A DNA stretch of 9,988 nucleotides from Clostridia bacterium (GTDB lineage: Bacteria > UBA6262 > WVXT01 > JAUXBS01). The notes beneath the pieces are model-generated. The model saw only the letters and a list, made by a program, of their open reading frames with translations. It was not told the DNA's origin and made no database searches. Made by a program: the position numbers and the translations under genes. The DNA lies in contig JAUXDE010000062.1 in the NCBI GenBank assembly GCA_030618495.1, positions 1 through 9,988 on the forward strand. The letters run 5' to 3'. The stretch's first letter is position 1, and every line of letters begins with the position of its first letter. Shown piece by piece: positions 6,431-9,988 of this stretch.

Positions 6431-7105
6431 ATGAAGAAAGTAATACTATTTTTACTGACTATAATCCTGATACCGCTTATTGTGAACTGCACCGGCAGGA
6501 TAGAAGGTTATGTGTCTAAATCGGATGAAAGGGCCGCGGTTGAGGACGTTGATGTGCTGGATGCGGTGGAAGTAACCCTGTCGCCGCAGGACGGTAGTAC
6601 CGCCCCTCCCGCGGAGCGCACCAACCAGTCAGGTTATTATGTTTTTGAAGGGCTTACACCGGGATATTACGATATGACTTTTACTGCGCTTAATCATGGG
6701 AATGTAACAAGCACTTTTGATAACGTTGAAGTAGAGGAAAACCTGACTACTCCTGTTTCAATCAAGATGGAAATACTCACCAGTTCAAGCACGGTCGTTT
6801 CGGGCACTTTTTCAGTAGAGAAATCAACTATACCAATAACATGTGATGTTTCATTCGAGGTATTTAATGACGGGGATTGTCCTATATATGGAATTGTTGT
6901 AAAAGTCATTTTATACACTGACAGCGCAAAGAACACCGCGATTACCACGGCATATGGGAGCGTGGAAGATACCACTATACAACCGGGTTCTTCGAGTGAA
7001 GGCACTATAGATGATATTGATTGTGGAGCGCAGGAACCAAAGGCGATCACCTGTTCCATTGATAGTCTTTCCTGCCCATCCGCATGGAGTATACACAGTC
7101 AATGA
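6431..7105 (+). CDS. Putative lipoprotein with carboxypeptidase-regulatory-like domain
   Basis: This 224-residue protein has an N-terminal signal (K-K at 2-3, hydrophobic 4-18) ending in L-I-V-N-C. Cys20 is the probable lipidation site, although Asn before the Cys is unusual. Residues about 22-113 form a carboxypeptidase-regulatory-like / Cna-B-type beta-sandwich: G-R-I-E-G-Y-V at 22-28, V-E-V-T-L at 46-50, and T-N-Q-S-G-Y-Y-V-F-E-G-L-T-P-G-Y-Y (64-80). Residues about 118-210 look like a second beta-sandwich of FxLYD character (F-N-D-G-D-C-P-I-Y-G-I-V-V-K-V, then I-Q-P-G-S-S-S). There are five further Cys in the mature part (138, 150, 198, 208, 215), compatible with disulfides. A strong GGAGG (6417-6421) lies nine bases before ATG, 28 nt after pilQ, so it is probably in the pil operon. 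It could assist the secretin or be a surface lipoprotein; its function is unknown. Its 3' end overlaps the following open frame. Confidence 0.75.
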   Translation: MKKVILFLLTIILIPLIVNCTGRIEGYVSKSDERAAVEDVDVLDAVEVTLSPQDGSTAPPAERTNQSGYYVFEGLTPGYYDMTFTALNHGNVTSTFDNVEVEENLTTPVSIKMEILTSSSTVVSGTFSVEKSTIPITCDVSFEVFNDGDCPIYGIVVKVILYTDSAKNTAITTAYGSVEDTTIQPGSSSEGTIDDIDCGAQEPKAITCSIDSLSCPSAWSIHSQ

Positions 7106-8792
7106 TAAAAAAAAACTTCCTTTATTACTACTCCTGTATTTTATAGTTGTTTTTTCCCCTCTTGCCAGGGCATCCTGGGATATCTGGGCATGCGCTTCAA
7201 TTCACATTGTATCTCTCCTTATCCTCCTTATTTACCTGATTTCAGTATTATGGGATTCTGAAAGAGCGGGTATCCGGGTTAATGTAAAATCGGTTTATTT
7301 CCCGCTTTTTATTTTTTTATTTATATCTTCACTTTCATATTTAACTTCAATAGACAGGTTCAACACCCGCAATGAGCTCTTTAACCTGCTCAACTACATG
7401 TTCCTGTTTTTCATGGCTGGCAGGATAGTTGGAGAGGAAACCTCCGGTAATAGCGGTCTTAATTCCAAATATGACTTAAAACAGGACAGGAGCAGGCAGT
7501 ATTTCCTTTGCCTGCTGTTGTCTATCGGGGCGTTTCTTTCGTTAACAGGGTTTTCCCAGTTCATAAGGGGAGTGTCGGTCACGGGAACAATGGTTAATTC
7601 CAATATACTTGCCGGGTACCTGGTGATGGTAATCCCTGTTTCGCTCGGTTTTTTAATAAAGGAATGGAATTCAAAGATTAAAAGGTTCTTGTGCCTTGGA
7701 ACTTTTGGCTTAATGCTGGTATGCTTGTTTTTAACGAGGTCCCTGGGGGGGATCCTCGGGGCATTTATTGGTGTATTGTTGGTGGCGTACTTCATGTTAG
7801 GGAGGGATTTTTTCAGGAAGTACAGGTACTACTTCATAGTCCTGGTTTTCCTGCTGGCAGCCCTTTCAATAATCAAGCTCTGTGATATTAACGCGGCGAA
7901 CCGTTTTTCGTGGTGGAAGACAGCTCTCAGGATGATAGCCGACAAGCCGCTTTTTGGCGTGGGTTTGGGAAATTTTGGTTCGGCGTTTCTTAACTACAAG
8001 TCAGGAGCGTTGAATTCCCTGTACGCGCATAATTTCTTTCTTCAAACCGGGGCTGAAACCGGCGTTGCGGGATTGCTGGTATTAGTATGGTTTTTAATAA
8101 AGGTGTTGAAGAGGGGAAAAACAACTGATAAATTGCTGTTCGCAAGCGTAATCGGCATACTCGTTCAGAACCTTGTGGATTATAACCTGTGTATTCCCGC
8201 CAATGCCGTGCTTTTCTGGATGATGCTTGGAATAATGCGGGGAAGAGATGAAGGAGGGCATTACAGTAGATTCACGCTTGAATTAAACAGGGAAAAGAAG
8301 GGCATACTAACCGCTGTAATCGTAATGCTGGTTTTATGGGCAGGCGTTAAGGTGACCAAACCGTTTCTTGCGAGCAGGTACGGGGTTTTCGCCGGCAACA
8401 GCGTAAAGGAAAGACATGCTTCCCATGGGGATACAGCTGAGGAGAAAAAAGAAACTAAAATCAGAGCGCTGGGCGAGGCGGAAGATTATTACAGGAAAGC
8501 CATTGATACTGACCCGTTGAATTCCATGCATTACTCCGCCCTGGCGGACGTGTACATGGGTTATTACATGGAAGACGGTTACAGGAGCTGGCTGGACGAG
8601 GCAATAATAGAACTGGAGAAGGCGGTAGAATATCGGTACTGTTACGCGCCATTTCACAGGAACCTATCGCTTCTGTACCAGCTTAAAATGGACTATGAAA
8701 GGGCTGTCAGGGAAATAAAAACAGCTATTGAGTGCGATAAGTTTAACAAGGAATACAGGAATATACTTGAAAACCTTATGATTAATCAGTAG
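7011..8792 (+). CDS. O-antigen ligase / polymerase superfamily (Wzy_C) membrane protein with C-terminal TPR; start uncertain
   Basis: The open frame gives 593 residues from ATG 7011 (GAAGG 6998-7002 eight bases before), but its first 31 codons overlap the end of the lipoprotein gene and look like shadow sequence. Real protein appears to begin near residue 33 (K-K-K-L-P), leading into a first membrane helix with F-S-P-L-A-R-A-S-W-D-I-W (48-59). Many hydrophobic segments follow, with superfamily landmarks: N-S-N-I-L-A-G-Y-L (196-204), T-R-S-L-G-G (242-247), K-P-L-F-G-V-G-L-G-N-F (312-322), A-H-N-F-F-L-Q-T-G-A-E-T-G (339-351, the periplasmic-loop His region) and N-L-V-D-Y-N (387-392). After a last helix (about 433-450) comes a TPR-like region (about 487-588). 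The family transfers or polymerises undecaprenyl-linked glycans in the periplasm: WaaL, Wzy, or pilin oligosaccharyltransferases such as PglL. Which of these applies cannot be read from the sequence. A start at 7102 needs a frame shift in the A run. Confidence 0.85.
   Translation: MILIVERRNQRRSPVPLIVFPAHPHGVYTVNDKKKLPLLLLLYFIVVFSPLARASWDIWACASIHIVSLLILLIYLISVLWDSERAGIRVNVKSVYFPLFIFLFISSLSYLTSIDRFNTRNELFNLLNYMFLFFMAGRIVGEETSGNSGLNSKYDLKQDRSRQYFLCLLLSIGAFLSLTGFSQFIRGVSVTGTMVNSNILAGYLVMVIPVSLGFLIKEWNSKIKRFLCLGTFGLMLVCLFLTRSLGGILGAFIGVLLVAYFMLGRDFFRKYRYYFIVLVFLLAALSIIKLCDINAANRFSWWKTALRMIADKPLFGVGLGNFGSAFLNYKSGALNSLYAHNFFLQTGAETGVAGLLVLVWFLIKVLKRGKTTDKLLFASVIGILVQNLVDYNLCIPANAVLFWMMLGIMRGRDEGGHYSRFTLELNREKKGILTAVIVMLVLWAGVKVTKPFLASRYGVFAGNSVKERHASHGDTAEEKKETKIRALGEAEDYYRKAIDTDPLNSMHYSALADVYMGYYMEDGYRSWLDEAIIELEKAVEYRYCYAPFHRNLSLLYQLKMDYERAVREIKTAIECDKFNKEYRNILENLMINQ
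7102..7115 (+). other. ATGA stop/start overlap followed by a nine-A run: likely true ligase start with a frame discrepancy
   Basis: The lipoprotein stop TGA (7103-7105) overlaps an ATG at 7102-7104, the classic ATGA arrangement, with GGAG at 7086-7089 twelve bases upstream. Read literally, this ATG gives a 14-residue peptide ending at TAG. The sequence that follows is ATA and then nine A (7107-7115). With ten A instead of nine, the ATG would enter the ligase frame as M-I-K-K-K-L-P, a natural N-terminus for an inner-membrane protein of about 563 residues. Either one A is missing from the sequence (sequencing or assembly error, or strain mutation), or polymerase or ribosome slippage on the A run restores the frame. 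Confidence 0.55.
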
Positions 8793-8809: not shown

Positions 8810-9988
8810 ATGAACAAAATGATTTCAATACTGTTATTTATCCTGTTTCTTTTTGCTCCATGGTTTAAGGGGGGCAGGGAAACAGCGCCTCTTGCCGTAA
8901 TCCAGGTTATTATATTATTTGCAGGTTTGCTGTGCCTGCGGAGAAACAGGTATTTTCCTTTCAGCAGGTCATCAAGGTTAAATTTTCCGCTGGTAGTATT
9001 TATTGGTTTCTGTTTCCTTTCCACGATATATTCTATGTACCTGAATAATTCCATCCTGGGTTTTATAAGTGTAATAATCTTCATCATTTTATACCAGGTT
9101 CTGGTATACAATTCAACGGATTCAATAAATGACAATCTGTTTATGTTGATATTCATAACGGTTTTTGTTATCTCCATAGTCTCGTTTGAGAAGAATTTAT
9201 TTCCGAACAGGAACCTGCTGGCAGGTTACCTGGTTATTGGTATAGTTATAGGTTTGACCAGGATAATGATAAATATGAAGGACTGGCTTTATGACGGGAA
9301 GTACGGTCATGTTGTCCTTTTTTCCCTGCCGATTCTGGTAATGTTTATTAGTTTGGTTAAAACGCATTCAAGAGCGGGGTACCTGGGGTTGGCTGCCGCT
9401 GTTATCTTTTTTGCAGTCACAAGGTATAGGAAATGGGGAATAGCCGCAGTATCCGCGGTTCTGATTTTAACGTTTGTTATAGTCCCGTCATCCGGGATAA
9501 GGAAGGTCCTTAAAATGGATTCGGCAGACCCTTATTCAAACCAGAGGCCAAATATATGGAAGGGAAGCGTTCGTATGATTTTAGAACGCCCTTTCCTCGG
9601 AACGGGACCGGGTAATTTTGAATACGGTTTCTTAAAATACAATTTTCCGGTTTATGGAGCGTTGGCGCAATACGGCAAACATCCCAGGTTTGCGCACAAC
9701 GAATACCTGCATCTCGGCGCGGAAGCAGGATTGATTCCCCTTTTTATGTTTTTATGGATAGTGTGGTTGTTTTTTGCCCGGGGGATTAAAAGGTTCTATA
9801 TCGCCTGTGATAATAAAAGGCTGCTGTGGCATTATCTTTCCTCCATGGCAGGGGCTGTGGCCATATTGACTCATGCGCTGGTGGATTTTAACCTTCACCT
9901 TCCCGCAATATCAACTGTATTTGTATTCTTCTTAAGCGTTGTCATGAGGAAGGAGGACTCAAAACAGTTGCGCTGTGTTCCCGGAACC
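8810..9988 (+). CDS. Second O-antigen ligase / polymerase superfamily (Wzy_C) membrane protein (3' partial)
   Basis: From ATG 8810 the frame is open for 393 codons to the last base of the window, so the stop lies beyond it. The N-terminus is a membrane helix with F-A-P-W-F-K-G-G-R-E (15-24), followed by multiple hydrophobic segments. Superfamily motifs appear in order: N-R-N-L-L-A-G-Y-L (133-141), H-S-R-A-G-Y-L-G-L (186-194), E-R-P-F-L-G-T-G-P-G-N-F (259-270), a periplasmic-loop A-H-N-E-Y-L-H-L-G-A-E-A-G (295-307) and H-A-L-V-D-F-N-L-H-L-P-A (355-366). It is a divergent relative of the gene just upstream, 17 nt away. No Shine-Dalgarno-like sequence is evident; a second in-frame ATG at 8819 is no better, so translation may depend on re-initiation. 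It may acquire a TPR tail beyond the window as its neighbour does. Role as glycan ligase, polymerase or pilin oligosaccharyltransferase is undetermined. Confidence 0.88.
   Translation, partial: MNKMISILLFILFLFAPWFKGGRETAPLAVIQVIILFAGLLCLRRNRYFPFSRSSRLNFPLVVFIGFCFLSTIYSMYLNNSILGFISVIIFIILYQVLVYNSTDSINDNLFMLIFITVFVISIVSFEKNLFPNRNLLAGYLVIGIVIGLTRIMINMKDWLYDGKYGHVVLFSLPILVMFISLVKTHSRAGYLGLAAAVIFFAVTRYRKWGIAAVSAVLILTFVIVPSSGIRKVLKMDSADPYSNQRPNIWKGSVRMILERPFLGTGPGNFEYGFLKYNFPVYGALAQYGKHPRFAHNEYLHLGAEAGLIPLFMFLWIVWLFFARGIKRFYIACDNKRLLWHYLSSMAGAVAILTHALVDFNLHLPAISTVFVFFLSVVMRKEDSKQLRCVPGT

Follow-up and report, generated by a model that had tools for sequence, protein, structure and literature searches.

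The DNA analysed here, called the window, takes in the entire length of one contig (G000:C43, 9988 bases). It belongs to a metagenome-type genome, designated G000, which comprises 1.69 Mb in 179 contigs with a GC content of 42.6%. Judged by open reading frames only, the contig holds an apparent pilM-N-O-P-Q-type set, followed on its 3' side by a lipoprotein gene and a ligase-like gene (waaL). The features that matter here are the following.

6431..7105, plus strand: putative lipoprotein, 224 aa, with an SdrD_B/CarboxypepD_reg-type domain (Pfam PF17210, E 2e-8; PF13620, E 4e-8)
7086..7089, plus strand: GGAG, Shine-Dalgarno-like, the sole such element near ATG 7102, with 12 bases between them
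7102..7146, plus strand: short ATG frame, MIKKNFLYYYSCIL and a stop, 14 codons (from the sequence, with the run read as A9)
7107..7115, plus strand: A9 run, the presumed slippage site (from the sequence; the same run in the second genome, G001)
7116..8792, plus strand: body of a Wzy_C / O-antigen-ligase-like protein (Pfam PF04932 Wzy_C, E 4.7e-16)
8810..9988, plus strand: second Wzy_C ligase-like gene with its own ATG, which leaves the contig end (open reading frame and Pfam)

The junction of the lipoprotein and ligase genes

The Wzy_C domain of the ligase gene scores 59.4 bits, above the Pfam cut-off of 31.7, and the C-terminal region is weakly TPR-like, with a weak PilW-type TPR match. The protein is thus a member of the Wzy_C family, in which WaaL, Wzy and pilin-glycan ligases are inseparable by sequence alone, and its ligase activity is putative. 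The two Wzy_C ligase-like genes stand in tandem 3' of the pilM-Q-type cluster, and many more Wzy_C and TPR matches lie elsewhere in the same genome.

The junction reads CAATGATAAAAAAAAACTTCC. The ATG at 7102-7104 overlaps the TGA at 7103-7105 that ends the lipoprotein gene, and the A9 run (7107-7115) is followed by C 7116. From this ATG the frame runs for 14 codons, MIKKNFLYYYSCIL, to a TAG at 7144-7146. The ligase frame is open directly 3' of the run, one base off the ATG frame. Its stop-to-stop open reading frame spans 7011-8792, and the only ATG, GTG or TTG codons that it contains 5' of the run are at 7011, 7023 and 7059, plus a TTG at 7017. All of these lie within the lipoprotein gene, and none of its own codons offers the ligase frame a credible start. 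When one A is added to the run, the translation becomes M-I-K-K-K-L-P-L-L-L-L-L-Y-F-I-V-V-F-S-P. An earlier note on this DNA had described the ATGA overlap with the nine-A run, the one-base offset, the want of a plausible ligase start (it named 7011, 7023 and 7059) and the M-I-K-K-K that an A10 tract would place before the first membrane helix, and our reading of the sequence agrees with it throughout. Standard gene callers would assign such a protein a false N-terminus, here from 7011.

In the phase of the ATG, the run contains the heptamers A_AAA_AAA (7107-7113) and A_AAA_AAC (7110-7116). The count of A8 words within the window is at chance, and an A9 run is unremarkable by composition alone.

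Conservation of the break in related genomes

The relatives available are one genome of the same genus (G001) and genomes of the same order. Since the genus is represented by two genomes in the collections, conservation here means two loci in two species. A protein search of genome contigs with the ligase alone gave no match; beyond the same relatives, an alignment-based search returned only a distant homologue from Elusimicrobia, whose ATG is normal.

The ligase orthologue in G001 has 63% protein identity, and its junction reads GTAAATGATAAAAAAAAACTC, with the ATG, the A9 run and the offset all as in G000. The segment ATGATAAAAAAAAAC is identical in the two genomes and carries the same one-base break, so that the A9 tract has equal length in both available genomes of the genus. 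The GGAG at 7086-7089 is kept as well, but TGG AGT, the lipoprotein codons that contain it, are themselves conserved. The G001 sequence comes from a cold-seep catalogue assembled with MEGAHIT (PMC10491686), and its record is a short-read contig in the style of that assembler, with a coverage of 86. The same break in a second species, at this identity and coverage, makes an assembly slip very unlikely.

Over the 50 codons after the run, G000 and G001 differ at 41 of 150 positions, with 13, 6 and 22 differences at codon positions 1, 2 and 3. Most differences thus fall in the third position, so that the ligase frame is under constraint at the protein level right after the run, and the residues stay hydrophobic in character from the first codon onward. 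The G001 locus (L003) has no counterpart of ATG 7011, and the extension from 7011 onward is not conserved. The earlier note had proposed to compare tract length and N-terminus among orthologues, and had named a conserved extension from 7011 without an ATGA-type start as the pattern that would speak against it; the alignment gives A9 in both species and, in G001, the opposite of that pattern.

In the same order, ligase orthologues from three genomes (G002, G003 and G005) have about 44% protein identity. Near the start, none of them contains ATG, GTG or TTG, and protein similarity begins at ATA TAT ACC AAA AAA GTT, which is invariant among them (L004 near 1486, L006 near 1483, and L005 on the reverse strand). 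On this pattern, the same-order orthologues may use an AUA start codon.

Long A runs and broken frames across the genome

Every run of at least nine A in the genome was inspected for frame breaks. Besides the ligase, two further runs sit on such breaks, in mreC and coaBC.

G000:C120:9090-9099 (L231 about 10900), minus strand: A10 run at the start of mreC (from the sequence)
G001:C288, L102 near 1491-1500: mreC start ATG-A10-TTTAAT, with the same break
G000:C102, L213:316-324: A9 run of coaBC, between the CoaC and CoaB domains

The mreC gene, identified by PF04085 (E 2.6e-39) and TIGR00219, lies 3' of mreB and begins ATG-A10-TCTAAT. The MreC frame is one base off this ATG, needs A11, and is without any start for about 25 codons. 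The A10 break is exactly kept between G000 and G001 at 68% protein identity, and in four same-order genomes mreC has an in-frame GTG start. An A9 run, one A short, splits the coaBC gene into a CoaC portion (PF02441) and a CoaB portion (PF04127, E 1.6e-61). The gene is fused in frame in four same-order genomes; a search for its orthologue in G001 found none. The breaks in the ligase gene, mreC and coaBC share one direction, each needing an added A, and beyond the break itself all three genes are intact across hundreds of codons.

An A9 run in the leader of a sigma-factor-like gene (G000:C119, L230; G001:C148, L239) was considered as a fourth case and rejected, as the gene has its own ATG and the contig is shared or misbinned: both bins have the same 1079 bases at 100% identity, where other genes are at about 70-75%. 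The leader reads ATG-GT-A9-TAATG, and one added A would join it to the gene. A supposed break in G002 (L262) was rejected as an antisense reading, and no broken gene was found at any of the A9 runs checked in G002 and G003.

A fourth-order coding model was also trained and used in a Viterbi scan allowing frameshifts, which covered 1.117 Mb, with 985 kb called coding. Among its 24 frameshift calls, 23 were ordinary gene junctions and one, coaBC, was a true internal break. The scan itself missed mreC and the ligase gene, where it could bypass the shift by taking a start codon located later or upstream, and start-proximal breaks at shorter runs may be under-detected in the same scan. A separate search for ATG-proximal A runs yielded mreC, the ligase gene and the sigma-factor leader at a length of at least nine; at A6-A8 nothing as clean turned up.

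Counted on both strands, the genome has 1639 A6, 625 A7, 211 A8 and 15 A9 runs. Runs of at least nine number 18, against about 108 extrapolated from shorter runs, and are thus about six-fold rarer. About 500 coding A7/A8 runs contain no break, whereas three coding runs of at least nine are broken and at least five are intact (Fisher 2.6e-6, on approximate counts). A7/A8 runs are rarely kept between G001 and G000 (about 4 of 50), and four A9 runs of G001 that can be aligned to G000, in-frame or at gene edges, are none of them A9 there, whereas the two broken runs (A9 of the ligase gene, A10 of mreC) are kept exactly. On these small numbers, the Fisher value for broken runs is 0.067 against A9 runs and 0.013 against A7/A8 runs. 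Genes elsewhere in these genomes also hold A9 runs in frame, which tells against slippage in so far as it cannot be so frequent as to damage them. The assembly retains runs as long as A13.

Probable slippage, its alternatives and known systems

The sequence itself shows that the genes are broken, all in one direction, that two of the breaks are exactly conserved between two species, and that runs of at least nine are depleted. As in known slippage, a run of at least nine lies at the frame junction, long runs are otherwise avoided, and both break and run are conserved while the gene stays intact. We infer that the ligase gene is probably expressed through slippage of RNA polymerase on its A9 run, where the slippage, its fraction and its transcriptional nature all carry this same qualification. 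Ribosomes would start at ATG 7102, coupled with the lipoprotein gene's 3' end. On a faithful A9 mRNA they would read 14 codons and stop at 7144-7146, while a fraction of the mRNA with one inserted A (or 1+3n) would be read as M-I-K-K-K-L-P-L into the first membrane helix and give the full-length ligase. The same arrangement would serve mreC, where ATG-A10-T needs A11, and coaBC, where the A9 lies between the CoaC and CoaB domains. The depletion of long runs has been tied to transcriptional slippage, with nine as the usual length at which selection acts against it (Baranov 2005, PMC1088944). In Buchnera, 151 of 157 insertions made in transcription fall in A/T runs, and deletions lie mostly elsewhere (PMC5574713). 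The measured preference of insertions for A/T runs matches the shared +A direction of the three breaks. Against slippage, the same genome-wide RNA error sequencing in Buchnera recorded no case of a frame restored by a transcription error (PMC5574713).

The same protein could also, as the chief alternative, be made from an unaltered mRNA by programmed -1 ribosomal frameshifting on A_AAA_AAA or A_AAA_AAC just after initiation at ATG 7102. The latter is counted among frameshift heptamers (PMC5009743), heptamers stand in the right phase in all three broken genes, and the -1 direction is common to them. This route is nevertheless unlikely. Downstream RNA structure is absent (fold z -0.2 and -0.6 in the two species), the GGAG lies 17-20 bases 5' of the heptamer, so that no close Shine-Dalgarno stimulator is present, and no frame break lies at A7/A8 runs, where these heptamers also occur and which exceed the longer runs about 60-fold in coding sequence. 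A ribosomal site needs only A7, and the threshold of nine seen here points to the polymerase; the preference for the polymerase rests on breaks and depletion that both begin at nine, on the direction of A insertion and on the missing ribosomal stimulator. Both tRNA-Lys anticodons are in the genome, which is undecisive between polymerase and ribosome. If initiation took place instead within the ligase frame, at a near-cognate codon such as CTG 7134 or through termination-reinitiation, the ATG and the run would be irrelevant. The CTG after the run is common to G000 and G001, and the same-order family, also without ATG, GTG or TTG, seems to begin at ATA. Such a start is very improbable, given that ATG-AT-A9-C is unchanged between the species, that hydrophobic character begins with the first codon after the run, and that coaBC and the shared ATG-A10 of mreC are left unexplained.

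The earlier note had listed an assembly indel, phase variation and slippage as its options. Single-base homopolymer errors are frequent with some sequencing chemistries, and a decayed pseudogene might have the same appearance. Error or decay now has a probability close to negligible, and the indel option is removed in practice: the run has equal length, with the same break, in a short-read contig of another species, three core-type genes carry the break within hundreds of otherwise intact codons, there is no other internal frameshift in 1.1 Mb, and even A13 runs are preserved. Phase variation, in which replication slippage alters the run so that A10 cells express the ligase, A9 cells are off and the assembly represents the off phase, has precedents at A8-A9 in the surface-glycan genes wbeL and manA of Vibrio cholerae O1 (PMC3441752), and an A9 run is a plausible hypermutable tract. 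It is quite improbable here, as the same off length would have to be present in both species, and likewise an off state in coaBC and in mreC, which is A10 in each; these last two are core genes of cell shape and coenzyme A, presumably needed, and not expected to be off as the consensus. Slippage is the option that remains, with the break shared by two more genes; the distinction between polymerase and ribosome is an indirect one, drawn from run-length threshold, direction and the lack of stimulators. Read in this way from the genomes compared, the conserved gene start of the slippage type is real, and its transcriptional step is the part that we infer.

The break may represent decay that is tolerated because slippage rescues it, as in Blochmannia (PMC3017870), or a selected dosage valve that caps the amount of protein. 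A hypermutable run that is exactly kept out of frame, at two loci in two species, even though the gain of one base restores the frame, leans tentatively to the valve. That start-proximal A runs form a deliberate expression valve in this genus, with nearly all functional envelope protein (MreC, glycan ligase) dependent on slippage and kept so by selection, is a tentative and rather doubtful proposal. If true, a free-living-type genome retains out-of-frame starts across a long divergence. Outside mobile elements and insect endosymbionts, few genes depend on slippage, and a limited literature search found no paper on core genes with a slippage break immediately after the start codon.

Several known systems resemble this one in part. 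In Citrobacter rodentium tssM1, an A run breaks the frame and insertion of A by the polymerase restores it; about 20% of the product is full length, and an AAG substitution abolishes the effect (PMC4256274). There the run is A11, far inside the gene, and protein of both lengths is needed, whereas here the run is directly behind the start codon and the unslipped product is a 14-residue peptide. Blochmannia and Buchnera (PMC3017870 and the studies it cites) also have core genes broken at A9 or longer and conserved between species, with about 30% corrected transcripts reported. These are AT-rich obligate insect endosymbionts with more than 100 long runs in genes, whereas the present genome, at 42.6% GC, has few long runs, and breaks mark 3 of its roughly 8 coding runs of at least nine. 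A run of nine A, or one of U, together with a mixture of mRNA lengths that sets the product ratio, is also found in dnaX of Thermus thermophilus (A9) and mxiE of Shigella (PMC1088944); they are other genes, and dnaX is in frame without slippage. The A8/A9 tracts of Vibrio cholerae wbeL and manA (PMC3441752) are similar in lying in surface-polysaccharide genes at an A9 scale. The in-frame length is usual there, whereas the ligase gene described here has the out-of-frame length in two species and shares its break with housekeeping genes.
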